From the NCBI GenBank assembly GCA_949710005.1, contig OX453274.1, positions 4,133,655 to 4,197,654 on the forward strand: 64,000 bases of DNA, in the 5' to 3' direction. This DNA comes from Ricordea florida (lineage: Eukaryota; Cnidaria; Anthozoa; Corallimorpharia; Ricordeidae). Each line of letters begins with the position of its first letter. The first letter of the stretch is position 1. A program made the position numbers and the translations under genes. Of this stretch, positions 23,702 through 44,188 are shown piece by piece. The notes under the pieces are model-generated. The model saw only the letters and a program-made list of their open reading frames with translations, was not told the DNA's origin and made no database searches.

Positions 23702-23705
23702 CAAA

Positions 23706-26094: not shown

Positions 26095-26118
26095 GAGTTT
26101 AAAGTAATCAAAACAAAA

Positions 26119-26754
26119 ATGTTCAGTATTACAATGTACGATTCAGAAACTAGGGTTTATTTAGATCCGCCGCTGAAAAATCTTCGTGAGATACAGCTCC
26201 TGGATTGCAATTTAAAGAGCAAAAAGTTGATTAATTTCAAGGACCAACAGTTATTATTCAATGATAAGAATCAAGTTATCATAAAAATTCAGCCCGGCAC
26301 ATATTCTCTTTGTAATTTTCAATCAGTCTTTCTTAATGATCCCGAAGTGGAAAAAATAACAATAATTGAGAGTGATACTGTTGACTATCTTTATTCAAAT
26401 AAGAACTACAAAATTAGACTTGCTAAAGGATTGTCGATTGCTTTAGGAGTACCAGAAATTATAAATCCTGGTAAATTATACCCCATAAATATACAGTTTA
26501 AGGAACCTTTGAGACTTATGTGTAGTATAGTGGATAATAAGTCATCATATATGAATAACACTAAATATGGAGAACTTGTGAAACTCACACCATCTAATTT
26601 ACTAGCAAACATTCCTTCACAAGATTATCCGACAATTCCGGTTCAAAAATATGAGAGTCTCATAAACCACTTCGATTTAACTATCTTAGACACTAAATGG
26701 AAAAAACTTGATCTGAAGGGTTCTCCCATAACTCTTAGTTTAAGATTTAGATAA
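26119..26754 (+). CDS. Possible minor capsid (penton) protein, 211 aa
   Basis: A beta-rich protein of identical length in both elements. It opens with SITMYDSETRVYLDPPL and closes with INHFDLTILD, KLDLKGSPIT and SLRF, a terminal strand pattern seen in Polinton-associated capsid-like proteins (recall). Size and beta content fit the single-jelly-roll penton. No catalytic motif is seen. It converges on the minus-strand gene at 26792, with a conserved hairpin between. Confidence 0.6.
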   Translation: MFSITMYDSETRVYLDPPLKNLREIQLLDCNLKSKKLINFKDQQLLFNDKNQVIIKIQPGTYSLCNFQSVFLNDPEVEKITIIESDTVDYLYSNKNYKIRLAKGLSIALGVPEIINPGKLYPINIQFKEPLRLMCSIVDNKSSYMNNTKYGELVKLTPSNLLANIPSQDYPTIPVQKYESLINHFDLTILDTKWKKLDLKGSPITLSLRFR

Positions 26755-26760
26755 ATTTTT

Positions 26761-26790
26761 GTTATGTAACCATTTATTGGGTTATATAAC
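26761..26790. terminator. Hairpin between convergent genes (E1)
   Basis: GTTATGTAACC (26761-26771) pairs with GGTTATATAAC (26780-26790), 6 bp after one stop and 1 bp before the other. The same arms lie at 43012-43040 in E2, so it is conserved while sitting outside both genes. A bidirectional terminator or 3'-end signal is plausible. Confidence 0.5.
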
Positions 26791-26791
26791 A

Positions 26792-27304
26792 TCAATCTTC
26801 TTCACCAAATACCTCTTCTTCCAAAAACCTTAACTCTTCAAAATCAATACACCAATCTAAATATCTAGATGGATGCCATGTTACAACCATTAATTCATCA
26901 TATAATTTTTTATAAAATTTATGTTTGTGTTGTATCCTATAAGGATCTAAAGTTAATGTAATAGAAAATGATTTAATAATAAAACCCCCTAAAACATTAT
27001 TATGATCACAATCATTAATAAATTCTATTATTTCTCTATCATATTCTTCATTATCAAAATTTCTCATATCACAATAATAATTAGAATAAATAAAAATATG
27101 ACTCATATTATAATATTTATATTTATATTTAATCTCTCCATAAGAATTTTCATCAATAAAACTAAAATTTTTCATAATATTATAAGACAAATCTTTCTTT
27201 ATTGAATTTAAAAAATCATAAGGTTTAAGTTCATCAACATTAAGATATGAAAACTTTATAGTTTCTTCTTTTCCACACATATCAGTATATACTTGTTTTG
27301 CCAT
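26792..27304 (-). CDS. HPxRxxxWC-motif protein, 170 aa
   Basis: Function unknown. It is rich in Tyr, Asp and Asn. The conserved C-terminal signature runs KFYKKLYDELMVVTWHPSRY and then LDWCIDFEE; E2 keeps the H-P-x-R and W-C residues. I recall similar C-terminal motifs in giant-virus proteins, which would point to a link with large DNA viruses (unverified). Its promoter motif overlaps the 3' end of the next gene upstream. Confidence 0.7.
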   Translation of the reverse strand: MAKQVYTDMCGKEETIKFSYLNVDELKPYDFLNSIKKDLSYNIMKNFSFIDENSYGEIKYKYKYYNMSHIFIYSNYYCDMRNFDNEEYDREIIEFINDCDHNNVLGGFIIKSFSITLTLDPYRIQHKHKFYKKLYDELMVVTWHPSRYLDWCIDFEELRFLEEEVFGEED

Positions 27305-27320
27305 CTTTTATTTTTATATT

Positions 27321-27782
27321 TTAAATCTTTAAATCATAATTAATTTTAATTTTTTTTCGACATTCCTTACAAGAAGATTTTTGTTTACCATGTTCACATA
27401 TTTGTGATCCGCCGCATTCTTTACATTGATGTTTTTGTTTATTGTGTATGCATATTCTCGACCCACCACATTCTTTACACTGATACTTATATTTATTGTG
27501 AATGCATATTTGCGACCCACCACATTCTTTACATTGATGTTTATTTTTATTGTGTATGCATATTTGCGACCCACCACATTCTTTACAAAAATATCTATAA
27601 ATTCCATGAATACAAACATAATTATTATTAATGTTAACTTTTTGTTTTATCTCATCATCCGCAAATTTTCCTATCTCTTCAATCAATTCTGCTTTATTCA
27701 TTCCATATAATCTTTTAATTTTAAACCCCGCAGCAATTTTTTTCAATTGTGGTAAATATAATTTTTGTAGTTTTTGTTCCAT
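27321..27782 (-). CDS. Tandem Cys/His-repeat (zinc-knuckle-like) protein, 153 aa
   Basis: An N-terminal SAP-like helical segment (about 1-36) precedes four near-identical 18-residue repeats at 66-137 of the type CKECGGSQICIHNKNKHQ, with half-repeats on both sides. Each repeat offers three Cys and one His, so adjacent repeats probably share zinc sites. Nucleic-acid binding is likely (inference). It is the outermost right gene, reading inward from the TIR. Confidence 0.8.
   Translation of the reverse strand: MEQKLQKLYLPQLKKIAAGFKIKRLYGMNKAELIEEIGKFADDEIKQKVNINNNYVCIHGIYRYFCKECGGSQICIHNKNKHQCKECGGSQICIHNKYKYQCKECGGSRICIHNKQKHQCKECGGSQICEHGKQKSSCKECRKKIKINYDLKI
27325..27333 (-). promoter_or_regulatory. 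TTTAAAGAT motif for the 27304 gene, inside the upstream ORF
   Basis: On the minus strand GATTTAAAGATTTAA contains the motif and also encodes the last residues and stop of the Cys-repeat gene, about 20 bp before the next ATG. Confidence 0.55.
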
Positions 27783-27810
27783 AATTAATTTAATGGAGCA
27801 ACATCATTTC

Positions 27811-28438
27811 TTTAAATAACATTTATTTTTCATTTTTTTATCCCAGCCTCCCTAATTCGAAAACCTCCGCAACTGAAAAACAGAACTTTTGCATAACCTC
27901 TGCAAAATTTTCATGTCAGCTTTGTGGACAGATCCCTTCATCAGATTTCACATTGGTTTGGTATTGGATTGGTATTGGCTTAGGCTTGACGCGGGCTTGA
28001 CGTTGGCTTGACTTGGGCTTGACATGGGCTTGACTTGGGCTTGACATGGGCTTGATGCGGGCTTGATGGGGGCTTGACTTGGGCTTGATGAGGGCTTGAC
28101 ATGGGCTTGACGAGGGCTTGACTTGGGCCTGACAAGGGCTTGACTTGGGTTTGGCGGGGGCTTGACATGGGTTTGGTGGGGGCCTGACAAGGGCTTGACT
28201 TGGGCTTGACGGGGGCTTGACATGGGCCTGACAAGGGCTTGACTTGGGTTTGATGGGGGCTTGACATGGGCTTGGCGGGGGTCTGACAAGGGCTTGACTT
28301 GGGCTTGATGGGGGCTTGACATGGGTTTGACAAGGGCTTGGCGGGGGCTTGACTTGGGCCTGACAAATCTCTGATAAATTCTTGGACAATTTTTATAAAA
28401 TATTTTTTTGTCCCCGTATCGGTGAAATACATATCTCT
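27811..28438. repeat. E1 right terminal inverted repeat (628 bp)
   Basis: Reverse complement of 12848-13475. The apparently identical copies suggest recent replication or gene conversion. Confidence 0.95.
27980..28364. repeat. 11-bp minisatellite in E1 right TIR
   Basis: Mirror image of the array at 12922-13306 with the same unit order. On the plus strand it reads GGGCTTGACNN. Confidence 0.95.
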
Positions 28439-28443
28439 CAGAG
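28439..28443. repeat. Right target-site duplication of E1 (CAGAG)
   Basis: Matches 12843-12847. It directly follows the terminal ATATCTCT. Confidence 0.55.
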
Positions 28444-29850: not shown

Positions 29851-32800
29851 AAGATTTTACTCCAATAGAAATTAATACAGCATTCGATGGTTATCTGAAA
29901 ACATATAGAATATATGGAAGGGAATATAAAATTAATTTAGAAAATAATTCAGAAAATTATTATAATTTTAAAGATTCCTTAAGGTTTAAAAAAATCTTTG
30001 AAATAGAATTTGATGAAGAAAAAGAAAAAGAAAAATTTATAAGAGAAAATAGTGATCTCGCATTTTTAAAACCTAAAAAAATCGTAGAATTAGGACTTGA
30101 TGAATTAACATTTATAAGAGAAATAAAACCGGCAGTTATTAACTTAATTAATAAGCAAGAGAAACCTATAAAGATAAAATTTATTTTCACCTGTAAATTT
30201 GTACATTTTGAAAGTGAAAGATTAATAGATAAAAGGTCAGATGGATTTTTTCACAGTCAAAGGCCTGAGATTATAACAGAGTCAACAGATTTATCCAAAC
30301 TATTCGATGAGATGACTGGATATTTACTAGAGCTTTTTAAAAATTATACGCGCAAAGGTAGCGGTTGGGTATTTAATGGTGTGGAATACTTTGATATAAA
30401 AATTGACCCATTTGATCCACTTTCTGCAAAAAGTTATATTGAACTACCAAAATTCTTAGCAAATAAAAAAGCAATAATAAATCCTAAGAATGAAGATGAT
30501 GATGATTGTTTTAAATATGTAGCAACCATAGCAACAAATAAAATAGATAATCATCCAGAGAGAATAACTAAAGAACTGATTGAAATGTCTAATAGGTTTA
30601 ATTGGAAGGGAATTGAGTTTCCATTTAAATTAACGGATATTAATAAGTTTGAGAATCAAAATGAAAAATATGCAGTTAATGTGTATGGATTTGATGAAAA
30701 AAAGTTAAAAATATATCCTTTGCACATAAGCGATAAGAAAAACAGATTTTTAATAGAAACACTATATATAACAAACAATGAAACAAGTCACTACTACTGG
30801 ATAAAGAATTTTGATAAATTAGTACATTCTCAAGTTACTAAAAATACAAAAAAGATTCACACATGTCGCAGATGTTTTTATCACACTCATGAAGAGGAAA
30901 CAATGAAAAAACATGAAGAATATTGTAAAGAACATGATTCTGTCAGGATTGAAATGCCAATAGATAAAGACGGAAATCCTGAAATTATTAAATTTACGAA
31001 TCATAGTAATAAAATTAAAGCGCCTTTTTCTGTATATTGTGATAAAGAGACTTATAGAATTTTATTAGACTATAACGAATCGGAAGACAAAACTAAAAGT
31101 TACACAATTAAATATGATAAACATAAAGCCTCAGCTTATTGTTACTTAATAAAGTTTGCTGATGAAGAATATGAATCTTTTATTAGACGATACACTGCTA
31201 AATCACCGGAAGAAGATATAGGAGAAATATTTATGTTACAATTAGAAAAGGATATTAGAGAAATTTATGAAAAAATTAAACCAAACAAGAAATTGAAATT
31301 GATGACGCAAAGAGAACAATTAGAATATAAAAACGCAACAATCTGTCATATATGTGAAAAAGAATTATTAGAAGAGGATAAGGTTAGAGATCACTGTCAT
31401 TATACTGGAAAATATAGAGGAGCCGCACATAAAAAGTGTAACTTTAATTTTTTTAATAGAAAATTTATCCCAATATTTTTTCACAACTTAGCGGGATTTG
31501 ATGCACATCTTTCTATTAAGAGTATCGGTAAAACTGAAGGCAAAGTAAAATGTATACCTAATAATGAAGAAAAATATATTTCCTATACAAAACAAATAAT
31601 ACTCGGCGAATATAAAAATAAAAACGGTGTGTTGAAAAAAGATATGTTAGACATTAGATTTGTAGATTCATTTAAATTTATGCAAACAAGCCTCAATAAT
31701 TTAGTTAAAAATCTTACAAATTGCGGAAAATGTGAATCATGTAAACCAGGAGATTGTATTAAAAGATACATAGAAGATGGAAAGATCATCAACTATACTG
31801 GTTTTGGTAGATGTGGAAAATGTAAAAATTGTAAGTTAAGCAAAAGTAGATGTCTTTCCCCAAAGGATGATAAATTAATTGAAACTAAAAAAGTTTTTAA
31901 GGATAAAACATATTTAGCTATAAGGAAGGGTGTATTTCCCTATGAATATTTCACAAGTCTTGATATTCTTAATGAAACTAAACTTCCACCAATAGAAGCT
32001 TTTTATTCTAAATTAAACGATGAAAAAATATCAGAAGAAGATTATGAACATGCACAAAAAGTGTGGAAAGCTTTTAATATGAAAACAATGAGGGATTACC
32101 ACGATCTTTATCTCTTGTTAGATGTATTATTATTAACTGATGTATTCGAAAATTTTAGAGATGTTTGTATGAAAAATTATCAATTAGATCCCGCACATTA
32201 TCTTACAGCGCCCTCACTAGCCTGGGATGCTATGTTAAAATTAACTAAAGTAAATTTAGAATTACTTATTGATAATGATATGTTACTAATGTTTGAGAAG
32301 GGTATAAGAGGTGGTATATCACAAATATCAAAAAGACAAGCTAGAGCTAACAACCCATATATGGAAAATTTTATGGATGATATGGTGAAAAGTTATATTG
32401 TTTATCTTGATGCGAATAACTTATATGGTGCAGCAATGAGTGATCTATTACCTACACACGGTTTTAAATGGTTGCCAGAGGAAGAGTTTGAAAAATGGAG
32501 AGATATACCATGCATACTTGAGGTTAATCTAGATTATCCAAATCATCTTCACGATCAACATAATGATTATCCACTAGCTCCTGAAAGCCTTACTGTTAAC
32601 AAAGTGAAAAAATTAATCCCAAACTTAAACAACAAGGAAAAGTATGTTCTTCACTACAAAAATTTAAAAAAATATGAAAGTTTGGGGTTAAAAATAACAA
32701 AGATACACAGAGCAATTAAATTCAAAGAATCAGCATGGTTAAAACCTTATATCGATTTAAATACTAAATTAAGAGCTAATGCAAAGAATGATTTTGAAAA

Positions 32801-33635
32801 GGATTTTTTCAAATTAATGAATAACTCTGTTTTTGGTAAAACAATGGAAAATATTAGGAAAAGGGTTGATATTAGATTAGTTACAAATGAAGAACAAGCT
32901 AGAAAGTTAATAAGTATGCCTAATTATCATCACCGCACAATATTTTGTGAAGATTTAGCAGCCATACATATGAAGAAAAAATTTATAAGATTTAATAAAC
33001 CTATTTACTTAGGTATGTGCATTTTAGATTTGAGTAAAGTAATAATGTATGATTTTCATTATAATTATATAAAACCTAAATATGGAGATAAGGCTGAATT
33101 ACTTATGACTGATACTGATTCTCTTGTATATGAAATTGAAACTGAAGATTTTTTCAAAGATATTAGTTCTGACGTTAGAGAAAAATTCGACACTAGCAAT
33201 TATCCTAAAGATCACCCTTCAGGAATTGAGATAGGTGTAAATAAAAAAGTAATTGGTATGTTTAAAGATGAAATGGGTGGAAATATTATAAAAGAATTTA
33301 TTGGTCTGAGGCCAAAGTTATACTCAATATTGAAGGATAATAATGATGAGATAAAAAAGGATAGAGGAATTAAGCAATGCGTTGTAAAAAATACAATCAA
33401 ACACAACGATTATAAGGATGTTTTAGAAACTGGAGAACATCAAATGAGAGAGATGAATGTGTTTAGAACAGAAAAACATGATATTTATACCGTCACCATC
33501 AATAAAATTGCACTATCCGCTAATGATGATAAAAGAATAATTTGCAAAGACGGAAAACATACTTTAGCTATTGGACATTATCGAACTAAGCCGGATCAAT
33601 CTAAAACGGAATCTGGCGGCAACTCAGTATCATAA
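29754..33635 (+). CDS. Protein-primed DNA polymerase B, E2 (main frame)
   Basis: This frame is open from 29754; its first ATG is at 30312 (1107 aa from there). Upstream codons still align with E1 polymerase (FDGYLKTYRIYGREYKI), so the native N-terminus lies in the other frame. It contains a C2H2-like finger (CRRCFYHTHEEETMKKHEEYC), ExoI CDKE, the endonuclease-VII-like CHIC and DHCHYTGKYRGAAH site, ExoII HNLAGFD, the 8-Cys cluster, motif A DANNLYG, motif B MNNSVFG, motif C DTDS, and KLYS. The catalytic residues look intact. The 3' end overlaps the integrase by 40 bp. Confidence 0.9.
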   Translation, partial: KKKTQPNPQPQEPQEPPIPPPRKKRNKKKQKLEDFTPIEINTAFDGYLKTYRIYGREYKINLENNSENYYNFKDSLRFKKIFEIEFDEEKEKEKFIRENSDLAFLKPKKIVELGLDELTFIREIKPAVINLINKQEKPIKIKFIFTCKFVHFESERLIDKRSDGFFHSQRPEIITESTDLSKLFDEMTGYLLELFKNYTRKGSGWVFNGVEYFDIKIDPFDPLSAKSYIELPKFLANKKAIINPKNEDDDDCFKYVATIATNKIDNHPERITKELIEMSNRFNWKGIEFPFKLTDINKFENQNEKYAVNVYGFDEKKLKIYPLHISDKKNRFLIETLYITNNETSHYYWIKNFDKLVHSQVTKNTKKIHTCRRCFYHTHEEETMKKHEEYCKEHDSVRIEMPIDKDGNPEIIKFTNHSNKIKAPFSVYCDKETYRILLDYNESEDKTKSYTIKYDKHKASAYCYLIKFADEEYESFIRRYTAKSPEEDIGEIFMLQLEKDIREIYEKIKPNKKLKLMTQREQLEYKNATICHICEKELLEEDKVRDHCHYTGKYRGAAHKKCNFNFFNRKFIPIFFHNLAGFDAHLSIKSIGKTEGKVKCIPNNEEKYISYTKQIILGEYKNKNGVLKKDMLDIRFVDSFKFMQTSLNNLVKNLTNCGKCESCKPGDCIKRYIEDGKIINYTGFGRCGKCKNCKLSKSRCLSPKDDKLIETKKVFKDKTYLAIRKGVFPYEYFTSLDILNETKLPPIEAFYSKLNDEKISEEDYEHAQKVWKAFNMKTMRDYHDLYLLLDVLLLTDVFENFRDVCMKNYQLDPAHYLTAPSLAWDAMLKLTKVNLELLIDNDMLLMFEKGIRGGISQISKRQARANNPYMENFMDDMVKSYIVYLDANNLYGAAMSDLLPTHGFKWLPEEEFEKWRDIPCILEVNLDYPNHLHDQHNDYPLAPESLTVNKVKKLIPNLNNKEKYVLHYKNLKKYESLGLKITKIHRAIKFKESAWLKPYIDLNTKLRANAKNDFEKDFFKLMNNSVFGKTMENIRKRVDIRLVTNEEQARKLISMPNYHHRTIFCEDLAAIHMKKKFIRFNKPIYLGMCILDLSKVIMYDFHYNYIKPKYGDKAELLMTDTDSLVYEIETEDFFKDISSDVREKFDTSNYPKDHPSGIEIGVNKKVIGMFKDEMGGNIIKEFIGLRPKLYSILKDNNDEIKKDRGIKQCVVKNTIKHNDYKDVLETGEHQMREMNVFRTEKHDIYTVTINKIALSANDDKRIICKDGKHTLAIGHYRTKPDQSKTESGGNSVS

Positions 33636-34627
33636 GGAATAACCTGTAATTCCTCTCTAACAAATCCTCTCCTCGGGCCATTAAGTAAATAATATAAAAC
33701 CGGTTGATTAGGTGAAAAGACAATTCTAGAAATATCATAAACTTTGATAGTCCAGATGGGGTCTGTGGCTCTCCTTTTTTCACCACCCTCAAGTTCTCCA
33801 GGAGATAATAAATATCTAACTTTTACATTTGGTGTTAATCTAACTTCATCGAGACCAACAACTCTCTTATATCTTTTTGTTTCAAGTTCAACCTCTTTCA
33901 TTTTAATGGCTTTATCAGGTTCTTTTCCAGTTATTCTAGTTGGTGTGCTGTTTAAAGTTTTTATAATAGCTGGTAATCGTTTTACCCACACTCTTGATCG
34001 GGCAGAGCCATCCTGCAACATTTCTTGCGCATATTGATGACTAAATAATCGCTCACCCAATATTTTATTTGCACTTTCAACAAATGCTTGGGCTCTATGA
34101 TTTCCAGCTTCACCTCTTTGTATTTTAACATTATGGTAATTCATAAGTTTTGTAACTTCACCCATAAATTCTTTTCCTGGATCAACCATTAATGTTTTAG
34201 GATATTTTAACTTTCTAGAATATATTTTTGTAAAAGCATTTGAAATTTCACGACTTTCTTTTGAAGTCAACGGTTCCGCATCTTTATATCTCGAGGCAAT
34301 ATCAACTACAACTAATGCATATTTATATGTTTTTCTTCCAACACTATCATGCGGCAAAAATAATAAATCTGCTTGGTGGATCTGATTAGGTGTATCCACG
34401 GTCCAGTGTGGTCTAGGTATATATTTTGGAGATGGAAGATATATTTGCCATATTGCTTGTTTTTTCAACCATTGTTTTGCAACATCTTGACTTACTTTCG
34501 CCTTCTCAGCTAATTTAGGAATCGCAGAATATCCTTTCCAATATCCTTCAGTTGAATAATATATCCGACTTAAAGTCAGGCCCGGCTCGGGCTTCGCCGA
34601 TATTTTTGATATCTTTTCGTTACTCAT
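33596..34627 (-). CDS. DDE (rve-type) integrase, E2, 343 aa
   Basis: Same architecture as the E1 integrase, with HQAD, MVDPGKEF and AFVESAN carrying the catalytic D, D and E. It has an extra N-terminal stretch (residues about 8-19) encoded by a GC hairpin insertion that E1 lacks, and an insert after the QEM motif. The start codon overlaps the TTTAAAGAT motif shared with the divergent capsid gene. Confidence 0.92.
   Translation of the reverse strand: MSNEKISKISAKPEPGLTLSRIYYSTEGYWKGYSAIPKLAEKAKVSQDVAKQWLKKQAIWQIYLPSPKYIPRPHWTVDTPNQIHQADLLFLPHDSVGRKTYKYALVVVDIASRYKDAEPLTSKESREISNAFTKIYSRKLKYPKTLMVDPGKEFMGEVTKLMNYHNVKIQRGEAGNHRAQAFVESANKILGERLFSHQYAQEMLQDGSARSRVWVKRLPAIIKTLNSTPTRITGKEPDKAIKMKEVELETKRYKRVVGLDEVRLTPNVKVRYLLSPGELEGGEKRRATDPIWTIKVYDISRIVFSPNQPVLYYLLNGPRRGFVREELQVIPYDTELPPDSVLD
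34580..34598. repeat. GC-rich double mini-hairpin in integrase N-terminus (E2)
   Basis: GCCCG-GCT-CGGGC (34580-34592) overlaps GGC-TTC-GCC (34590-34598). The E1 integrase has no equivalent residues. Confidence 0.7.
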
Positions 34628-34660
34628 TTAAAGATTAATCAAAGTATCTTATAAATTACA
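34627..34660. promoter_or_regulatory. Divergent promoter between integrase and capsid gene (E2)
   Basis: Only 33 bp separate the two ATGs. TTTAAAGATTAATCAAAG and TATCTTATAAATTACA match the E1 capsid leader block for block. Confidence 0.6.
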
Positions 34661-35905
34661 ATGACTTCTGAAAAAATTAATCCAAACAGAATTCCACGAG
34701 AACCATTTGGGTTGAAAGCAGAATCAACTTTGAATAGAATTACATTAAATCCATCCTCGGCTAGCCCCGGAGAAACATTATATATAAATATCCCTAAACT
34801 TTCTGATAATTTAGTGATTGTACCTGGAAGTGTATCTCTACTTTTTGATTTGGAAGTTGATGGGCATGCTAATAACACCCTTGTGAATAATGTGGGTAGT
34901 AATCTTGTATCCAGATTAAGGGTTCTTTTTGGTGGTGAAACATTACAAGATACCCAAAGATACGATCTATTTCAAACATATCATGATTTATTTTTATCAG
35001 ATGAGGATCGCGGGGATAAATTAAGACAAGGTATTTCTTCAGAAAACATGAGAAAACTAAGGACAAATGCCGGTGATAAGAAAACTCAAGATGTTAGGGA
35101 AGTAGCTCTTTCATCAGTACATAATACCAAGTACCATATTCCACTAAATCACCCTATTTTAAAAGATCACGGAGTTTTCTATCCAAAAGCTCTAGATCAT
35201 CATCTAATCTTTGAGATTACGCTAGCCCCAGTTTCTGATATTGTTGTTTTTTCTGATACAACAAAGACCCCCACATATTCAATCAAAAACCTAGAGTTAG
35301 AATATTCTTCCATTTCAAGCGAATACTTGGCTCGTGAGGCACAAGCAGCTTATCAGGTTGGAAAAGGATTCTTTTACGAAAATGTTACTCTACACAAAAC
35401 TTTTACTTTTTCCATAGGCGGGGACACTGTTATTAACCAGCATATTAATCTACCTAGAAGGTCAATGACAGGAATATTATTTTTGTTTAAATTACCCAAC
35501 ACTGCTGGGACACGAAACGCTGAAAGTTTTTACAATCCAGGGATCACCTCGATCAATATAGATGTTGATGGGGTACCAAATCGTTTATACTCTAAGGGAA
35601 TGATACCTTCTGATATCTGGGAGTCAGTGAAGAAAAGATTTGGACAGACAGAAGGGAGGAGCAGGATTGACATGAAAGAAAGGGATTTTTATTATGACAA
35701 GTTTGCATTATGGGTTGATTTGAGAACTCACCCTGATAATGATATTCATGGAGGAGGTTTGGTTTTAAACAATACAAGGGATGGGGTAAAACTAGAAATT
35801 AAAAGAAAACAAAGCGGATCAGGCACTGTAACCTGTTATATGTTTGTTGTAGCCGATGCAATGATGGAAATTATGAATGCAAGTTTGAGATCAATTAAGT
35901 ACTGA
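34661..35905 (+). CDS. Major capsid protein candidate, E2, 414 aa
   Basis: Closely related to 18893-20143 over its full length, including an identical start and near-identical IHGGGLVLNN and MFVVADAM tracts. Differences cluster in loops (about residues 135-160 and 320-335), as expected for surface loops of a jelly-roll capsid protein (inference). Confidence 0.8.
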   Translation: MTSEKINPNRIPREPFGLKAESTLNRITLNPSSASPGETLYINIPKLSDNLVIVPGSVSLLFDLEVDGHANNTLVNNVGSNLVSRLRVLFGGETLQDTQRYDLFQTYHDLFLSDEDRGDKLRQGISSENMRKLRTNAGDKKTQDVREVALSSVHNTKYHIPLNHPILKDHGVFYPKALDHHLIFEITLAPVSDIVVFSDTTKTPTYSIKNLELEYSSISSEYLAREAQAAYQVGKGFFYENVTLHKTFTFSIGGDTVINQHINLPRRSMTGILFLFKLPNTAGTRNAESFYNPGITSINIDVDGVPNRLYSKGMIPSDIWESVKKRFGQTEGRSRIDMKERDFYYDKFALWVDLRTHPDNDIHGGGLVLNNTRDGVKLEIKRKQSGSGTVTCYMFVVADAMMEIMNASLRSIKY

Positions 35906-35939
35906 AGAGACTTAAAACCTTATGTTATGATACAAAATC

Positions 35940-36581
35940 ATGGAAGAACTACGAGAAAAAATACCATTTCACTGTATCATAACCGGACCAACAAATTGTG
36001 GAAAAACAAAATACATTATAGATCAACTCCGTGGCCCCTTCAGAAAAGTTTTTGATTACATTGTTTTAATATGTCCAACTTATTCTAAAAATAAAACATA
36101 TCATAATTTTGCACGAGGAGATAAGAGATTCTTTGTATTGTCACCTGATGCTAGTAATATAGACGAGATTAATGAATTATTAACTGATTGCCAAACTTTA
36201 TTCTCTGGAACAAACACATTAATAATTTTAGACGATTGCGCTGTATCTAATGATCTGAAGAAAAGATCAAACAAGTTTATAGATTTGGCATTCTCCGGAA
36301 GGCATCATGGTTTATCAGTTTGGGTTCTCACTCAGCAATTAACATCAATTGCAAAACCTTTCCGAGAAAATGTGGCTTGTGTGGTCTCATTTCATAATCC
36401 GTCGCAGAAAGGTATGAAGATGTTTTTTGAAGATTATGGAGGTGATTTGGATTATGAAACAGGTAAAAAGTTTATGCAATTATTAAAAACAGAAAAATAT
36501 TCTAGACTATGTTTATGTTTACGTTACCCATTCAATTGTTATTTAGAGATCCCTTCGACGATTTCCTTCGGGCCGGCGTAG
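35940..36581 (+). CDS. Packaging ATPase, E2, 213 aa
   Basis: Walker A GPTNCGKT (16-23), Walker B LIILDD and the LTQQ sensor are as in E1. The last residues come from a GC hairpin insertion that replaces the E1 stop region and lengthens the tail to ISFGPA. It follows the capsid gene by 34 bp. Confidence 0.92.
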   Translation: MEELREKIPFHCIITGPTNCGKTKYIIDQLRGPFRKVFDYIVLICPTYSKNKTYHNFARGDKRFFVLSPDASNIDEINELLTDCQTLFSGTNTLIILDDCAVSNDLKKRSNKFIDLAFSGRHHGLSVWVLTQQLTSIAKPFRENVACVVSFHNPSQKGMKMFFEDYGGDLDYETGKKFMQLLKTEKYSRLCLCLRYPFNCYLEIPSTISFGPA

Positions 36582-36584
36582 CCG
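36565..36584. repeat. GC-rich mini-hairpins at ATPase 3' end (E2)
   Basis: CC-TTC-GG (36565-36571) is followed by CGGC-GTA-GCCG (36574-36584), spanning the stop codon. E1 lacks it. Confidence 0.7.
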
Positions 36585-36621
36585 ATTTAAAAGAATCTTT
36601 GTATTATTAGAAAATTATAAG

Positions 36622-37194
36622 ATGACAGAAGTTGATCGAGCGAAGCTCTCCCCGGCGATGCCGGAAGATTATATTAGTGATGAAAAAGATGAGGTAAAAG
36701 ACAATGTAAAATCTGATGATATTGAAATTAAACAAGAATCACTAGCTATTCTAGCATCTCTCGGAACTACAAAGGAATATTTAGGAGTTGATATGAGTCT
36801 GGGTGATGTAAAAAAATTATCAGTAAAAGACGTTGTTAAATATTATAATCGGTATCAGGCGGTATTAGGTAAGAAAATTAGCGGCGGGTTGGTAGATTCA
36901 TCTCTTCAATTAGTTTCACAAGTCATTTCTTATGTGGTTCCTGTAGATGATATAGAAGCTCTTTGTTTGGATTTGAAGAATGATGATTTAGTTAATCGTG
37001 AACTAACAAACATTGTAGGGCTCTTAGCATTGAAAGCAGGAAGATTGGCAGCACTTGCTAGCGGAGTATTCCAGGTTGCTAAACACATAAAATTCAACAA
37101 AAATCAACAAGTTTCAAGAAAAATTACAGATGATTCTAACACAAATGAGCAGGATACTAAGCAAGATGCTAACGGCGCTGATACTGTTTACTAA
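36622..37194 (+). CDS. Conserved element protein, E2, 190 aa
   Basis: Homologue of 20829-21374. About ten extra residues after the fourth codon come from a double hairpin insertion; downstream the helical core is strongly conserved (MSLGDVKKLS, GGLVDSSLQLVS). Function unknown. Confidence 0.8.
   Translation: MTEVDRAKLSPAMPEDYISDEKDEVKDNVKSDDIEIKQESLAILASLGTTKEYLGVDMSLGDVKKLSVKDVVKYYNRYQAVLGKKISGGLVDSSLQLVSQVISYVVPVDDIEALCLDLKNDDLVNRELTNIVGLLALKAGRLAALASGVFQVAKHIKFNKNQQVSRKITDDSNTNEQDTKQDANGADTVY
36638..36664. repeat. GC-rich double mini-hairpin, reference copy (E2)
   Basis: GAGC-GAA-GCTC (36638-36648), TCC, then CCGGC-GAT-GCCGG (36652-36664). This is the clearest bipartite copy. Its inverted relative is at 38312-38338. 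Confidence 0.85.
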
Positions 37195-37264
37195 GCATAC
37201 TATTATTTTATTTACATATCATTCCTAAGCGGTCTAAAGATTTCTTAATGATATGTAAAAAATA

Positions 37265-37747
37265 ATGTCAGAAGAAGTTGTTGATCGGGGCGAAGCCCCT
37301 CCCCGCTATACGGAGCAAATTACAAGAGATCCACCTAAAGAACCAGAAACTGTGGATAATTCTTCAAAAAAACGCACTAAAAATCCTAAAAAAGTAGCAG
37401 CAGGTAAGAAATTAGCCGAATATAATAAAAAAGCAAAAGAAGCATTAGCTAGAGAGACACAGCGTGCCGAGGAGCAAATGAAACATGAAGAAAAAATGAA
37501 ACAGGAAGAAGAGCAAAATGAAAATACATATAGTGAATCAAAATCATGGATGCCAGAGTTATCTTTTACTACTGTTTTATCTATTGTTGGATTAGGTTTT
37601 ACTGCATTTGATCTTTTTATGAGATATAAGGAAAAATCTGGGGATGAATATTCTAATAGGTTACCTGATTTATCACAAGCCCCTCCCACAAAGATTCATA
37701 ATCCACAACCACAACCGATAGATAGACCAAAAATTGGAATGATGTAA
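37265..37747 (+). CDS. Single-pass membrane protein, E2, 160 aa
   Basis: Homologue of 21412-21825 with a longer Lys/Glu-rich helix and the same hydrophobic segment (FTTVLSIVGLGFTAFDLFM). The N-terminus carries a hairpin-derived stretch (DRGEAPPRY). The leader contains TCTAAAGATTTCTTAATGAT, a variant of the promoter motif. Confidence 0.75.
   Translation: MSEEVVDRGEAPPRYTEQITRDPPKEPETVDNSSKKRTKNPKKVAAGKKLAEYNKKAKEALARETQRAEEQMKHEEKMKQEEEQNENTYSESKSWMPELSFTTVLSIVGLGFTAFDLFMRYKEKSGDEYSNRLPDLSQAPPTKIHNPQPQPIDRPKIGMM
37287..37313. repeat. GC-rich double mini-hairpin (E2)
   Basis: GGGGC-GAA-GCCCC (37287-37299) is followed by CCG-CTATA-CGG (37303-37313). The first stem differs from the 36638 copy by paired changes and one extra base pair. 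Confidence 0.8.
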
Positions 37748-37802
37748 TTTAATCGCGCCTCAAAAGGGATCTAAAGATTTCTTACTGATGTAGTAAAAAA
37801 TC

Positions 37803-38021
37803 ATGTCAAACGAAAATAAACTTGTGAAAACTGTTACTGATTCAGCAGTCCTTATCGGATTAGCAGCTGGTGTTGGATATGTTGCTAAAAAAGCAATGAA
37901 AGAATCATTTATGAACGACCCATCCTCAAGTATTACAAATTATGCAAAATGGGTTGCTGTATTATCGGGTAGTATGTACCTTAAAACATATTTAGAGGAA
38001 CAAAAGATACTTCCAAATTAA
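37803..38021 (+). CDS. Small two-helix membrane protein, E2, 72 aa
   Basis: Homologue of 21871-22089, same length, most residues identical. The leader has TCTAAAGATTTCTTACTGAT then GTAAAAAATC before the ATG. Confidence 0.78.
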   Translation: MSNENKLVKTVTDSAVLIGLAAGVGYVAKKAMKESFMNDPSSSITNYAKWVAVLSGSMYLKTYLEEQKILPN

Positions 38022-38032
38022 CGAATATAAAA

Positions 38033-38455
38033 ATGGCATCAATAGCATTTATGATTGGAGGAGCAGTATTAAATGCAACAGCTTTTGTTGGTGGATCATA
38101 TCTCGCAAAATATTTATCAGGAAATAAAACTGATACAGAACGAATACGACATGATAAAGCATTAGAAAAATATCAAAGAGATTATGCAGAATATCAGGAA
38201 AAAAGACAAAAACTAATGGATTGGAAAATAAAGAAAAAAGATGAAAAATACCAAGCATCAAAAAATATTTCAACTACAAATGAACAATTTGCATTATATG
38301 AACAAATGCAACCGACGGAGTCGGGGAGAGCTTTGCTCGATGAACCTAAATTCTCTGATTATTATAAACCCAGCGATAATCAAAAGATGGGTGAAATGGC
38401 ATATGTGGGTGGAGGTATGTTGGCATTGGGGTATGTAGCTAGTAAATTATTTTAG
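38033..38455 (+). CDS. Membrane-anchored helical protein, E2, 140 aa
   Basis: Homologue of 22091-22483. The one large difference is a stretch (PTESGRALLD) between the central helix and the KFSDYYKPSD motif, encoded by a hairpin insertion. Confidence 0.75.
   Translation: MASIAFMIGGAVLNATAFVGGSYLAKYLSGNKTDTERIRHDKALEKYQRDYAEYQEKRQKLMDWKIKKKDEKYQASKNISTTNEQFALYEQMQPTESGRALLDEPKFSDYYKPSDNQKMGEMAYVGGGMLALGYVASKLF
38312..38338. repeat. GC-rich double mini-hairpin, inverted copy (E2)
   Basis: CCGAC-GGA-GTCGG (38312-38324), GGA, then GAGC-TTT-GCTC (38328-38338). Its reverse complement aligns over 30 nt with the 36638 copy, with compensatory changes in one stem. Confidence 0.85.
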
Positions 38456-38473
38456 GTAATTGTATGTGATTAG

Positions 38474-38482
38474 TTTAAAGAT
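38474..38482 (+). promoter_or_regulatory. TTTAAAGAT promoter-like motif
   Basis: TTTAAAGATTTCTTACTGAT and GAGTAAAAAATC precede the ATG at 38511. This is the counterpart of 22496. Confidence 0.6.
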
Positions 38483-38510
38483 TTCTTACTGATGAGTAAA
38501 AAATCTAAAT

Positions 38511-39734
38511 ATGGCAGAAGCAGGAGATATACCATTAGAGGATTTACCAAAAGTAGATGATGACGATAATGATGATGATGACACATTTTATCAAAGCCCA
38601 AACACATCTACATCTGTTGATCAGGGTTATCATGGTTATTCAGAATATATGGCTGAAAGAAAAAGGCTTCAATGGGAAATAAAAGATGAAGAGAAAAAAC
38701 CGGCAAATAATAGAGAAAGAGATGAGGAATATGATAGAAGGAGAGAAGCGGGGCAAGAACTAAAACGATATTTTCCAAATTACAATCCTGATGATGGGTC
38801 ATTTAATGTAACATTTGGAGAAGATGGTAGTTTAATCGTTAGATTTAGTAATAGGAGTAATTCTGCACCGCATACAGTGGTTGATAAAGATGGAAATCTT
38901 AAGCTTGAAGATTTACCAAAAACAATGAGAAAAGCTCTAGGTGCTGATTATGAAAGCATGTTGAATAAATATAATGATGTTATATCTAAATTTAATGAAG
39001 AAAAAGAAAAACATAATGAATTACTTTCTGCAGTACAAGGAATAGATTCACTTTTAGCAACTCATACAGAGGAGATTAACCAATATGTAGAAAGAGAAAA
39101 AGAACTACGCCAATTCATTGAGAAACAGCAGGTACAAAAAGCAGAAAATAAAAGCCTTTTCGATCAAACAGCTAAACAGAATATAGAATTAAAAATACAA
39201 GCAGAAAAACTCTTGGATGAAGTAAAATTATACAAAGAAGAAATAGACAAATATAAGAAGGGCAAATCCAATTTATCAAAGTTAGAACAAAGTAAAGAAC
39301 GATTAAAATCAGAGAATGATAAATTAAGAGAACAAATTAGAAAGATTACAATCTCAAATGAAGAACAAATATCAGATATTGATAGTCGAAAAGAAGAAAT
39401 CCTTAAAAATTTGCCATTACGTGAACGATTAAAATACATCTTCAAAAAGTATGGTTTTACAGTCTTTTCTGTTATGATTGCCGTGGGTGTTGTTATTGGA
39501 GCTATAGTTTCTAATCTTTCAAAAGGTCTATCCAAATTAGGAAAAGGTGTTGGTAATGGGTTGAAAGCTCTTGGTAAGAAACTAGGTGAAATATTACCAG
39601 GAATGGTAGGCGCAATAGTTAGCTTTCTATTCAAAACAGCTGGCGAAGTTATTGGATTTTTAGGTAAGAATGCTTGGCTTTTGATAATGGCTGTGGTTTT
39701 GTATTTTGTTGAAAGTATAAAAAAGAGAAAGTAA
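38511..39734 (+). CDS. Coiled-coil protein with C-terminal membrane segments, E2, 407 aa
   Basis: Homologue of 22529-23701. The coiled coil and C-terminal hydrophobic part are nearly identical between elements, while the acidic N-terminal 100 residues are divergent. This start supports the shorter start chosen in E1. Confidence 0.8.
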   Translation: MAEAGDIPLEDLPKVDDDDNDDDDTFYQSPNTSTSVDQGYHGYSEYMAERKRLQWEIKDEEKKPANNRERDEEYDRRREAGQELKRYFPNYNPDDGSFNVTFGEDGSLIVRFSNRSNSAPHTVVDKDGNLKLEDLPKTMRKALGADYESMLNKYNDVISKFNEEKEKHNELLSAVQGIDSLLATHTEEINQYVEREKELRQFIEKQQVQKAENKSLFDQTAKQNIELKIQAEKLLDEVKLYKEEIDKYKKGKSNLSKLEQSKERLKSENDKLREQIRKITISNEEQISDIDSRKEEILKNLPLRERLKYIFKKYGFTVFSVMIAVGVVIGAIVSNLSKGLSKLGKGVGNGLKALGKKLGEILPGMVGAIVSFLFKTAGEVIGFLGKNAWLLIMAVVLYFVESIKKRK

Positions 39735-39738
39735 CAAA

Positions 39739-39747
39739 TTTAAAGAT
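39739..39747 (+). promoter_or_regulatory. TTTAAAGAT promoter-like motif
   Basis: ACAAATTTAAAGATATCA follows the upstream stop and lies 27 bp before the ATG at 39774, as in E1. Confidence 0.6.
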
Positions 39748-39773
39748 ATCATGTTGAGTAGTAAAAATACAAT

Positions 39774-40370
39774 ATGGATGAATACAACAGAATTTACCCT
39801 GGATTACCCAATAATTCAGATCCTATTAATTTCAGACTACAAAAATCGAGTGAAGTATTACAAAATCTCGAGAGAGAAATTAAACATTATGATGATGTAA
39901 GGAAAAAATATAATAGGGTGAGAGGAATATTTACAAAAATCAGTGTTTGTAGTGGAATTCTTTCTGTTATTCTATCCGCAAGTGGACTTGGAACTTCTCT
40001 TACAGGTTTTGGAGCTATTATTGGTGTTCCGTTGGGTGTTGTAGGTGGAATTTGTGGTGGATTATCTGTAGGATTTGGTGCAGCATCAAAAAGACTTTCA
40101 AATAAAGTTAGTAAACACGAACAAACCGCAGCAATTGCAAAATCAAAATTAAACACCATTAACGATTTGGTTTCAAAGGCTTTGAAAGATAATGTTATAT
40201 CTGATCAAGAATTTTCTATAATTTTAGCAGAGTTGGAAAAGTATCAAAAACTAAAACTAGAAATCCGGCAAAAATTTAGGAGAGATACAGAAAAAAACTT
40301 AAACATGTCGCAGATAAGAAGAGAAGTTCGATCAGAGCTATTAAAAGAGTTAACCACTCCCACACATTAA
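39774..40370 (+). CDS. Conserved element protein with Gly-rich hydrophobic core, E2, 198 aa
   Basis: Homologue of 23740-24375 without the hairpin-derived residues. The Gly-rich hydrophobic stretch and the tail (NDLVSKALKDNVISDQEFSI) are conserved. Confidence 0.75.
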   Translation: MDEYNRIYPGLPNNSDPINFRLQKSSEVLQNLEREIKHYDDVRKKYNRVRGIFTKISVCSGILSVILSASGLGTSLTGFGAIIGVPLGVVGGICGGLSVGFGAASKRLSNKVSKHEQTAAIAKSKLNTINDLVSKALKDNVISDQEFSIILAELEKYQKLKLEIRQKFRRDTEKNLNMSQIRREVRSELLKELTTPTH

Positions 40371-40497
40371 AAATTTCATATGAGAGAACAGATGTAGGAT
40401 GTAATTGTTTCGCAGGTATTAGAAAAGAAATTAATTAACTTTGCATTTTATTCTTGACCCAATTTAAAGCTCAGATTATTTGAAAAGAAAGAATAAA

Positions 40498-42108
40498 ATG
40501 TTTGATGATATATTATCAGATTTCAAAGCTGGTCATGATTTGTGGACTCATTTCAAAGTTAAATATCCAAACGCAAACCTTGATAAATTTACATTTGTGA
40601 ATGATTCATTTGGCGGATATATCAAGTGGGAAATTAATGGAACAACAATCATGTCTAATGATGATCCTACTGGAAAAACGTGGACTGATGATCTTTCTCC
40701 TAATTTGAAAACATTGTTATGGGAAGATTTAGGACTGAGTGAAGCGAAGAACTTGAATTCATTTCCAAAGAGTTTAACCATGACTAACCAAAGTTATCCT
40801 ATACCAGCTATTAAATTTGATGACTTTACAACTGACATAACAAAAATGTTAACCTCACTAGATATATATGTTTCAAATACAAAGAAATTCACGGCAAAGA
40901 TGCGTGATGTTTTTACCAATCAAGTTGTAACTTTCAAGTTTGGTAAACAAAGTAGAAAATGGTTGAATGGACCTGATATGAACTATTGGCCTCAGCAACT
41001 TAACTTTGCAGTTTGGTGTGCAACATCTGGTTGTGGGATTAGTCCTTTTGAAAGTCTAAATTACCCCAAAGTAGTGAATAGCTTCATTAAGTTTCATATA
41101 TATTTCACAATAAGACGAATACTGTATGAACTAGGCCTTCCCTTACCTGATGAGCAACCCTTTGTAATAAACAATAATCCCTATAGTAAAGTAGCATATC
41201 AACGTTTGTGCGCAGAATTTGGAATTAGTAATACAGAAGATTTTAGGTTTAAAATTGGAACAAACAATGGATTGGGAGATATATTTTATAAATATGATGA
41301 AAGTTCACCAAAAGAAAGTCAATATCCTGGTGATGATAATAAATTTTCAGATGACCTAACTGAGAGAGAAAAAACTGTTGCTAAAGGTTTACAAAAATTT
41401 TTTAAAAAGGATGCAGACTATAATCACGTTAAATTAATTTCATTTATTCGTAATGATGTCTTTGCTGAATTCAAATATGCTTGGTTTATCCCAACAAGTG
41501 GACATGGGCTCACTAAAGCTGGACTCGGTAGATTGAATCGATCCGCCGAAGCTTTTGTTTACTGTATATTGGGGGCACAAGTTAACACTAGAAACTCGAT
41601 TTATGGTAATGGTGGCGGAGCAATCGAGACACAACAAGAATTCTTGGCTTTATTTGAAAGTAGCGTGATTGAGAATGACATTTCTAATTCTATCCAAAGA
41701 TATCAATTAGCTGTACAAGAAGCGAAATTACGGCTTGATTTAGCTATTGCTCCAGGTTTGTGGTTGATGCCAAGTAATATGATCATAAATACAGATAGCG
41801 TGGTTGGATATAATAACAAACTTATGAAAGCGACTAATGATATGAAATTTGGAGCAAATAATTCCCTAAACACTGAATCAAAACCGGTTGGAATAAGCCA
41901 TAACTTAGGACCTTCAAAGTTAAAGTTACCTCATTCAATAGTTGAGACAAATCCGAAACCAAAAATCCTACCAACGCAAAATGAAAAGTCAACCAAAGGT
42001 CAGGACGTGACTACGCAACATGAAACCAATCCACAAAGCGAGCACGAAGTGCGTATATTAACATTTATAATTATCGGTGGAGGGTTGGCGTGGTATCTAT
42101 TTCGGTAG
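40498..42108 (+). CDS. Conserved Polinton-associated protein with C-terminal anchor, E2, 536 aa
   Basis: Homologue of 24478-26067. An ATG 18 bp upstream is in frame, but 40498 aligns with E1. A central 60-residue region (about 235-290) is unrelated between elements, the flanks conserved. A hairpin insertion lies just before the final hydrophobic helix. Confidence 0.8.
   Translation: MFDDILSDFKAGHDLWTHFKVKYPNANLDKFTFVNDSFGGYIKWEINGTTIMSNDDPTGKTWTDDLSPNLKTLLWEDLGLSEAKNLNSFPKSLTMTNQSYPIPAIKFDDFTTDITKMLTSLDIYVSNTKKFTAKMRDVFTNQVVTFKFGKQSRKWLNGPDMNYWPQQLNFAVWCATSGCGISPFESLNYPKVVNSFIKFHIYFTIRRILYELGLPLPDEQPFVINNNPYSKVAYQRLCAEFGISNTEDFRFKIGTNNGLGDIFYKYDESSPKESQYPGDDNKFSDDLTEREKTVAKGLQKFFKKDADYNHVKLISFIRNDVFAEFKYAWFIPTSGHGLTKAGLGRLNRSAEAFVYCILGAQVNTRNSIYGNGGGAIETQQEFLALFESSVIENDISNSIQRYQLAVQEAKLRLDLAIAPGLWLMPSNMIINTDSVVGYNNKLMKATNDMKFGANNSLNTESKPVGISHNLGPSKLKLPHSIVETNPKPKILPTQNEKSTKGQDVTTQHETNPQSEHEVRILTFIIIGGGLAWYLFR
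42042..42052. repeat. GC-rich mini-hairpin (E2)
   Basis: GCAC-GAA-GTGC, single stem, located in the linker before the C-terminal anchor of the 536-aa protein. Confidence 0.6.
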
Positions 42109-42306
42109 TTCATAGCCATTTCACGTGATTATCATTGTTTTTGGATTAGTGTTCAAGTGCAGAACAATAGATTGCATACTTTTACGACATAGCAACAAGA
42201 AAAATGTAAAGTGGATTTGAAATCGAAAAGTAGATTTTATGTTTACTTTTAAAAAGTCGGTTTCTAACGTCGCTCAGGAATGTGATTACGTCAATGCAAA
42301 GCTCGA

Positions 42307-42315
42307 TTTAAAGAT
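42307..42315 (+). promoter_or_regulatory. TTTAAAGAT promoter-like motif
   Basis: GATTTAAAGATGAGTATGAT is followed by AATCAAAACAAA, as before the E1 gene at 26119, but a hairpin insertion pushes the ATG 30 bp further away. Confidence 0.55.
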
Positions 42316-42355
42316 GAGTATGATGCAATCAAAACAAATCAGTCTAAAGACCTCC

Positions 42356-42366
42356 CCGCTACGCGG
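42356..42366. repeat. GC-rich mini-hairpin in a 5' leader (E2)
   Basis: CCGC-TAC-GCGG preceded by CTCC, ending 3 bp before the ATG at 42370. It equals the second half of the bipartite unit and is the only non-coding example. Confidence 0.7.
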
Positions 42367-42369
42367 AAA

Positions 42370-43005
42370 ATGTTGAGCATAACCATGTATGAGACTGAAA
42401 CAAGGATTTATTTAGATCCGCCGCTGAAAAATCTTCGGGAAATACAGCTCCTTGATTGTAATATACAAACCAAAAGATTGATTAATTTCAAGAATCCACA
42501 GAGATTATTAAATGATGAGAATTATCAACTCATAATAATACTACCTGGCGCATATTCGTTGCGTGATATTCAATCGATCTTTCTTAATGATACTGATAAG
42601 GCAAAGATAACAATCATTGAGACAGACACTGTTGACTATCTATATTCAAATAAGAACTTTAACATTAAACTTACGAGAGGGTTGGCGGTTGGTTTAGGGG
42701 TGCCAGAAGTTATAAATCCGGGTGTATTATATCCTATAAATATACAGATTAAGGAACCGCTGAGACTTATGTGTAGTATAGTAGATAATAAGTCTTCATA
42801 TATGAATAAAACCAAATATGGAGAACTTGTGAAACTCTCGCCATCACACCTACTTGCAAACATTCCCTCAAAGGATTACCCAACAATTCCAGTTCGAAAA
42901 TATGAGACCCTAATAAACCACTTTGATTTAACCATCTTGGATAATAAATGGGAAAAACTTGATCTTAAGGGTTCTCCCATAACTTTTAGCTTAAGATTTA
43001 GTTAA
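42370..43005 (+). CDS. Possible minor capsid (penton) protein, E2, 211 aa
   Basis: Homologue of 26119-26754 with identical length and the same beginning and ending motifs. Conservation is strong from about residue 85 onward. Confidence 0.6.
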   Translation: MLSITMYETETRIYLDPPLKNLREIQLLDCNIQTKRLINFKNPQRLLNDENYQLIIILPGAYSLRDIQSIFLNDTDKAKITIIETDTVDYLYSNKNFNIKLTRGLAVGLGVPEVINPGVLYPINIQIKEPLRLMCSIVDNKSSYMNKTKYGELVKLSPSHLLANIPSKDYPTIPVRKYETLINHFDLTILDNKWEKLDLKGSPITFSLRFS

Positions 43006-43011
43006 ATTTTT

Positions 43012-43040
43012 GTTATGTAACCATTATTAGGTTATATAAC
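43012..43040. terminator. Hairpin between convergent genes (E2)
   Basis: GTTATGTAACC (43012-43022) pairs with GGTTATATAAC (43030-43040); the arms are identical to E1 but the loop differs in length. Confidence 0.5.
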
Positions 43041-43054
43041 ATAATTATATCATA

Positions 43055-43765
43055 TTATTCATCCGGTAAAGAATTATAAATTTCTTGTTCCTCAATATCA
43101 TAACACCAATCCACAACTCTTTTTGGATGCCATGCTGCAACCATTAAATCATCATGCAAGTCTTTGTAGAATTTGCTTTTATTTATTGCTTTTATTAAAT
43201 CAACATGTAAGTCATTTTTAAAAAATATAACTACCTTAAATGAATTAACAATAAACTTATTATCAAACTTATTAATATTACATTCCTTATCATAATAACC
43301 AAAATCAATTAATTCACTATACCTAGCATAAAATTTTTCACAAAATTCATCATTATCATAATCACCATGATTGATAATATAATCATAAATTTCGTCGTCA
43401 TAATTACCCTTAGAAATAAATTCATCATAGCCATAAACATAATCATAATAAATAAAATTCTTCTCAAAAACATATTCGTTAATCCTTGCATTATATTTTT
43501 TATTAACTTCTTTTAATAAATCTTTACAAAACTTATCTATGCATATGCCGCCCAAACCAAAATTTTCATCAGCGAAATAAGTAATATTATTATCATCGCC
43601 ATAATTAATTACAAAATAAATATTAGGAATTCTATTTGGTTTAACAAAACATCTATTTTTTGATATATATCTTAACAAATCTTCTTTTATTTCCTCTATA
43701 AAATCATAAAAACTCAGTTGTTTTTCATTATAATAATCTTTTAATAATTCTTTTTTTGTTTCCAT
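43055..43765 (-). CDS. HPxRxxxWC-motif protein, E2, 236 aa
   Basis: Longer relative of 26792-27304. The C-terminal part aligns (KFYKDLHDDLMVAAWHPKRV then VDWCYDIEE); the Tyr/Asp/Asn-rich middle does not. Function unknown. Confidence 0.7.
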   Translation of the reverse strand: METKKELLKDYYNEKQLSFYDFIEEIKEDLLRYISKNRCFVKPNRIPNIYFVINYGDDNNITYFADENFGLGGICIDKFCKDLLKEVNKKYNARINEYVFEKNFIYYDYVYGYDEFISKGNYDDEIYDYIINHGDYDNDEFCEKFYARYSELIDFGYYDKECNINKFDNKFIVNSFKVVIFFKNDLHVDLIKAINKSKFYKDLHDDLMVAAWHPKRVVDWCYDIEEQEIYNSLPDE

Positions 43766-43784
43766 TTTAATAATTTTATTTTAT

Positions 43785-43793
43785 ATCTTTAAA
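43785..43793 (-). promoter_or_regulatory. TTTAAAGAT promoter-like motif
   Basis: On the minus strand TTATTTAAAGATATAAAA lies about 20 bp before the ATG at 43765. Confidence 0.55.
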
Positions 43794-43807
43794 TAATAAT
43801 TCATTTT

Positions 43808-44188
43808 TTAATTTTTTCGACATTCCTTACAAGAAGCTTTCTGTTTACCATGTTCACATATTTGTGATCCCCCACAATCCTTACATTGTTGTTTTTGTTT
43901 ATTATGTTCACATATTTGTGATCCTTCGCATTCTTTGCAATTATACTTAACTCTATCATGTTTGCATATTTGTGATCCCTTACATTCTTTACAGAAATAT
44001 TTACGCTTACCATGAATACAATTATATTTATAAACTTTTGGTAATATAATTTCCACAGGTATATCGATTTTCATATCAAATAATTTTTGAGCAAGCTCTT
44101 TTTTTATCAATCTGGTTCGCCTATAAACTTTATGCTGCCCAGCGAGATAAAGCAATTGTAAATAACTAAATTTCAAAAGTCCGTCCAT
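43808..44188 (-). CDS. Tandem Cys/His-repeat protein, E2, 126 aa
   Basis: Homologue of 27321-27782 with three full 18-residue repeats (66-119) instead of four. The first Cys positions (57 and 66) are the same. The first three codons (Met-Asp-Gly) lie inside the TIR and equal those of the polymerase gene at the other end. Confidence 0.8.
   Translation of the reverse strand: MDGLLKFSYLQLLYLAGQHKVYRRTRLIKKELAQKLFDMKIDIPVEIILPKVYKYNCIHGKRKYFCKECKGSQICKHDRVKYNCKECEGSQICEHNKQKQQCKDCGGSQICEHGKQKASCKECRKN

Follow-up and report, generated by a model that had tools for sequence, protein, structure and literature searches.

Very short elements built of two adjacent GC-rich hairpins were reportedly described from the mitochondrial DNA of the fungus Allomyces by Paquin, Laforest and Lang in 2000, and fungal mitochondrial double-hairpin elements nest within their own family. 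Here we report that the GC-rich hairpins scattered through a Polinton of the corallimorpharian Ricordea florida are likely to be very short mobile double-hairpin elements with the Polintons of this animal as their home. They lie in a stretch of 64,000 nucleotides (the window; contig OX453274.1, C3:4133655-4197654 of the 537.8 Mb, 48-contig genome examined) that contains two Polintons, E1 and E2. Like the fungal elements, they are short, consist of two adjacent GC-rich hairpins and are present or absent among relatives; unlike them, they are integrated in the nucleus, often lie in protein genes and have a fixed A/TC start.

Yeast mitochondrial GC clusters (e.g. GC42) are also palindromic and GC-rich, with an AG dinucleotide target and presence/absence variation, and how GC clusters and mitochondrial double-hairpin elements move is an open question (PMC4478555). 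The Polinton elements are nuclear, differ from the clusters in sequence and length, and have as target (G)A then TC rather than AG. In Volvox carteri, the short palindromic repeats found in organelles and nucleus have loops of 3-5 nt, are nested and occur in both orientations; their mtDNA copies are intergenic and intronic, except for one rRNA-coding module, and the nuclear copies were judged inert and organelle-derived by the authors (PMC2670323), whereas the Polinton copies are dispersed in nuclear Polinton genes. An earlier note on this DNA had likened the hairpins to bacterial palindromic elements inside genes. Those of Rickettsia are mobile and lie in frame within unrelated protein genes (about 150 bp with a conserved peptide; PMC10969869), as do most, not all, of the coding copies here. 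However, elements of about 100-150 bp with a conserved peptide are unlike ones of 30 nt with two triloop hairpins that are read in different frames, and the mitochondrial double-hairpin elements and GC clusters are the closer analogue in design. Adjacent short GC-rich hairpins, filled and empty sites and nesting are all found in the Polinton elements; the mitochondrial location is not, all 58 sampled matches being in chromosomal Polintons. Kilobase-size retroelements nested in Polinton-like viruses (PMC12220804) are a different matter. The earlier note knew of no precedent in Polintons, and within the literature searched on double-hairpin, palindromic, miniature inverted-repeat transposable element (MITE) and Polinton elements, which includes extracts of PMC2800124, PMC5799277 and PMC6004678, such elements are likewise undescribed there. 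In our reading they are mobile double-hairpin elements that occupy a kind of replicon new for such DNA.

Hairpins had been listed at seven sites in E2. An independent scan for perfect GC-rich triloop hairpins agrees with that list (34580, 36574, 36638, 36652, 37287, 38312, 38328, 42042 and 42356), with the borders of the first site corrected to 34561-34603 and those of the last to the whole pair at 42339-42367. The elements fall into at least two types, which differ in their target rules. Type I has the layout A/TC-hairpin-TCC-hairpin-GG/A and is 30 nt long. It is found after GA at 36636-36665 (forward strand; in frame, codon 5 of gene 36622-37194), again after GA at 37285-37314 (forward strand; near the N-terminus of gene 37265-37747) and in reverse orientation at 38311-38340 (reverse strand; in frame within gene 38033-38455). 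A Type I-like pair of 29 nt at 42339-42367 (forward strand) occupies the 5' leader of gene 42370-43005; a variant of it recurs in a capsid-gene locus (L076). Type II also has two hairpins, with a duplication of 4 AT-rich bp on either side. One such double hairpin, at 34561-34603 (reverse strand), is a 39-bp insertion (13 codons) with duplicated ATAT that lies in the integrase gene (33596-34627, reverse strand), close to the N-terminus; a protein gap and an empty site both mark it. A further Type II element, at 36560-36588 (reverse strand), is a 24-bp insertion where the ATPase gene ends and has a GATTT/AAATC direct repeat; the stop codon TAG (36579-36581) overlaps the loop of the hairpin at 36574-36584, and the insertion therefore provides the gene's new end. 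The single GC-rich triloop hairpin at 42038-42053 (forward strand), near the C-terminus of gene 40498-42108, is unassigned in class and polarity. A different GC-rich insert, of about 45 bp, lies at the ATPase gene end upstream of gene 36622 in loci L030, L031 and L039, and is itself a Type I target in L046 and L059.

Alignment with other genomic copies identified exact empty counterparts for five of the seven sites. Filled and empty copies differ by 24 bp at 36565, by 30 bp at each of 36638, 37287 and 38312, and by 39 bp with ATAT duplicated at the integrase N-terminus, where there is one empty locus (flank identity 0.92). At 42356 the comparison is approximate: the pair is absent in L003/L055 (two rows, one copy) and the A-tract differs by ~2 nt by eye. 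At 42042, L003/L055 has a related hairpin; the sequence of L004/L060 and of L087 is too divergent there for comparison. The closest filled and empty copies, C1:22253575 (the same place as L006, L016 and L063) and L014, differ by the 30-mer, with a mean flank identity of 0.997 over 150+150 columns. The claim that E1 lacks the insertion and aligns cleanly at each site stands for four of them: E2 has additional residues at the N-termini of the integrase and gene 36622, at the C-terminus of the ATPase and midway through gene 38033. At two or three sites the protein comparison is unclear; with E1 alone it is not clean at 37287, where the gap is of four residues and conservation around it is poor, or at 42042.

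The residues are thus insertions, several genomic copies having exact empty sites. The opposite view, that they are ancestral in Polintons and were lost from E1, has the smallest probability of any we considered. The E1 lineage does differ from that of E2 (protein identity is 59-90% in most genes), but many copies are empty, close E2 relatives among them, and elements are nested in elements. No clear element peptide is seen in homologues with less than about 65% identity to the sampled loci, and the ten-residue insert was not seen in the N-termini viewed (70 of 120 homologues listed; one partial form, P0058). Element peptides gave five matches in the 120 listed homologous proteins, with a single loose pattern only, which we read as chance. 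At 36638 and 37287 ancestry followed by loss is refuted by exact empty sites in close relatives.

Further copies exist well beyond chance. The reading of the earlier note is supported, as none of the three conditions that it named for refutation holds (ancestral residues lost in E1, no other copies, equal frequency in random sequence). A strict Type I pattern, which imposes the TC start, the TCC spacer and the GG end, has 514 matches in the whole genome (261 forward, 253 reverse) and none in the reversed control; for the 19-mer of the 36638 element there are 96 exact copies, and for one Type II subtype 84 matches (39 + 45), again with reversed controls of 0. In the window, a strict double-hairpin scan found three in E2, none in E1, one in the left host flank and none in the right. 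Across 68 loci (221 kb, overlapping and partly picked for hairpins) it found 79, compared with 0 when each locus was shuffled once by an order-1 Markov model. In 70 of 73 distinct contexts (loci and window) an A stands 5' of TC, at a base that no pattern fixes, and in 45 it is part of GA; the element closes with A in 71, many of the loci having been chosen by a pattern requiring that A. A looser scan of 30 loci fetched by protein, not by hairpin, gave 22 elements, every one of 30 nt. For Type II, the AT-rich direct repeats are AAATC, ATAT and, inside longer repeats, AAAT, with AAAT, ATAT or their complements at several sites. One site carries two different Type II elements (L025, L036), and L064/L065 have two in tandem there. 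Outside this genome, IMG/VR relatives of the E2 capsid yielded 14 pattern matches, none confirmed; the strict Type I pattern has no match in viral contigs and two in one genome per bacterial or archaeal species, both in bacterial metagenome-assembled genomes and taken as chance. Perfect stems with variable loops are what palindrome correction would yield if the hairpins arose locally at imperfect palindromes, through slippage during replication or a switch of template, and no mobile template took part. Such an origin is scarcely credible: the same 30-nt sequence with its TCC spacer at unrelated sites already disfavours it, and the half-palindrome is absent from empty sites.

The evidence for structure is covariation, not folding energy. 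Among 38 distinct 30-mers, 98.8% of 342 cells are paired, compared with 21-52% (at most 52.3%) in slid-structure controls. Three of the nine stem pairs show changes on both sides, and double-change cells number 27 against a shuffled mean of 10.5. The loops are variable (GAA, GGA, AAA, AGA, AGG, GAT, TAT and others). Folding z-scores of single short elements are modest (-0.5 to -1.6) and not decisive. Strong structure and frequent placement at gene ends could be expected if the hairpins were functional RNA or DNA signals of the Polinton, for packaging, termination or translation control. We regard this as very improbable, since at each site examined some copies have the hairpins and others do not, they differ in orientation and in the gene they occupy, and an Rfam scan found no family match in E1 or E2.

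Elements also insert into one another. Nesting was found at eight loci with six distinct outer elements; in one case a second Type I interrupts the first loop of a Type I, and scripted removal of the inner element leaves a hairpin or pair spanning the junction. At the N-terminal site of gene 36622, the element is present in 17 of 49 rows. Of the 32 labelled empty, one (L021) carries a one-hairpin Type I remnant with an apparent 15-bp deletion between two GC dinucleotides, apparently imprecise decay with the frame retained. The gene tree needs nine changes at this site (at least five forced by starred branches; shuffled mean 14.3), and the filled state therefore moves between lineages or gets lost. 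The nine changes, together with near-identical copies that differ by one element, are also what one would see if a few old insertions were reshuffled solely by recombination among Polintons, with no present transposition. This is improbable, however: near-identical elements occur at many unrelated sites, in both orientations and nested, and homologous exchange cannot create a new site.

All 58 sampled matches (50 of the 514 Type I and 8 of the 84 Type II) lie in or adjoin Polinton genes, within 107 bp: 30/30 within 30 bp, a further 20/20 for Type I and 8/8 for Type II within 107 bp. The genes that carry them, inside or alongside, encode capsid, polymerase, integrase, ATPase and several unnamed products, and both orientations occur. 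Polintons are extremely numerous in this genome: a degenerate packaging-ATPase motif has 3,269 exact matches (1,598 + 1,671; motif matches, not places confirmed singly) and none in the reversed control. At about 15 kb each, a size taken from E1, they would make up roughly 9% of the genome, so that 58 of 58 is far from random. We consider it very likely that this is a mobile family restricted, or almost so, to Polintons. The dispersal of copies, exact filled and empty sites, nesting, both orientations, many host genes, covarying stems with variable loops and the placement of every sampled copy together argue for such a family. Mobility and confinement are well supported; the mechanism we infer.

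The proposal that the hairpins insert in frame into genes holds in part. Among distinct GC-rich inserts (20-40 bp, flank identity >= 0.88), length is a multiple of three in 44 of 54 coding compared with 37 of 94 non-coding cases (82/92 and 54/128 with overlapping loci counted); AT-richer inserts show a weaker excess (10/16 and 17/30). Many copies, however, lie in untranslated regions or spacers and have lengths not divisible by three. The elements are read in different frames and on both strands, and 31 of 48 distinct Type I elements are open in all six frames.

Several points weigh against the mobile-family reading. The tight definition of Type I is partly circular, as TC, TCC and GG were set by the scans, and elements are present in only 15 of the 30 loci fetched by protein. 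Just 58 of 598 strict matches were placed, all on contigs C1 and C2. Ten of the 54 distinct coding inserts are not multiples of three, and coding was called by tblastn intervals only. The gene tree has unsettled bootstrap and one long branch (L058), and L021, labelled empty, is a remnant. No transposase or nuclease could be tied to the movement of the elements, nor was an intermediate, excised or replicating, observed.

E1 (12847-28439) and E2 (about 30312-44188, with polymerase, integrase, capsid, ATPase and other genes) are Polinton/Maverick elements by their predicted integrase, capsid, packaging ATPase and terminal inverted repeats, the last seen in E1. Pfam matches comprise the rve integrase, the Pox_A32 ATPase and Capsid_N (under cut-off in E1). 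The polymerase was named from its position and an Endonuclease_7 match only, polymerase profiles giving no match; the E2 open reading frame (ORF) begins at residue 297 of that of E1 and has about 296 fewer N-terminal residues. The Endonuclease_7-like match is present in both polymerase ORFs (13497-17729, E 6e-05; 30312-33635, E 4e-05), and this region is possibly a junction or loop nuclease. The 636-nt terminal inverted repeats of E1 (12847-13482 and 27804-28439) are 100% complementary, which suggests a young copy, and contain an array of about 30 overlapping 11-nt units. Elsewhere, a weak tRNA-family match in host DNA at 9179-9250 (31.3 bits, cut-off 29; Rfam), not called by ARAGORN, is possibly a tRNA-derived repeat. 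In the mtDNA contig C48, where TGA encodes Trp, an ORF that matches LAGLIDADG_1 (E 1e-08) interrupts cox1, an arrangement that suggests a hexacorallian.

How the elements move can be approached from their ends. Polinton insertion usually makes 6-bp duplications. One could suppose MITE-like DNA moved in trans by cut-and-paste, by the Polinton integrase or a host transposase, each copy arising from a staggered double-strand break with target duplication and no replication-stage step. The 4-bp AT-rich direct repeats at several Type II sites and the rve integrase encoded by Polintons are in keeping with this, and we rate it as unlikely but well ahead of the other alternatives. Against it, the ends are two separate hairpins and are not joined by terminal inverted repeats; the Type I repeat is at most 1-3 nt, with a fixed A before it; neither repeat length is the usual 6 bp; and a host enzyme should strike host DNA too, of which there is none among the 58 sampled matches. 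The separate hairpins at their ends also set the elements apart from MITEs in general, which have end-pairing terminal inverted repeats. The Submariner MITEs of Pandoravirus salinus, with 10 of 30 copies in predicted coding regions of this eukaryotic dsDNA virus, are 243-bp Tc1/mariner relatives with long terminal inverted repeats and a TA duplication (PMC4495683). They share with the Polinton elements the character of short non-coding palindromic mobile DNA; their length, long inverted repeats, TA duplication and kinship are not seen here.

A mobile double-hairpin family may instead insert through replication and a single-strand step, a route that we favour tentatively and at somewhat less than even confidence. 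During copying of Polinton DNA, single strands would fold into hairpins and new copies would be inserted. Type I would be joined 3' of A, usually GA, and as its own last base is A, both junctions would follow (G)A; for Type II a staggered break would duplicate four AT-rich bases. Filled sites would then pass between related Polintons by recombination or gene conversion, and selection would retain within-gene elements with a length that is a multiple of three. Single-strand elements of the IS200/IS605 or REP-like kind insert 3' of a fixed short target and have hairpins near their ends. The A before TC in 70 of 73 contexts, and a right end that closes with A (pattern-fixed in many loci), can be compared with this. 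Pfam scans of 17 E1/E2 proteins found no HUH/Y1 transposase domain; no search for one covered the rest of the genome. A more specific version, which we hold to be doubtful, is that Type I is a 30-nt single-strand element, (G)A-joined at both ends, that uses replication and nuclease functions of the Polinton: a hyperparasite in a nuclear virus-like element, open in most frames and supplying in-frame peptides to virion genes. Were this true, Type I would rank with the smallest known mobile elements, and it would be the first case of a double-hairpin family that is active outside organelles.

A mitochondrial design thus reappears in another replicon, where its hundreds of copies, the exact empty sites, a sharp target rule and nesting make the mechanism testable by comparison and biochemistry. 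For the Polintons, the elements are a route for adding short peptides to virus genes without breaking them.

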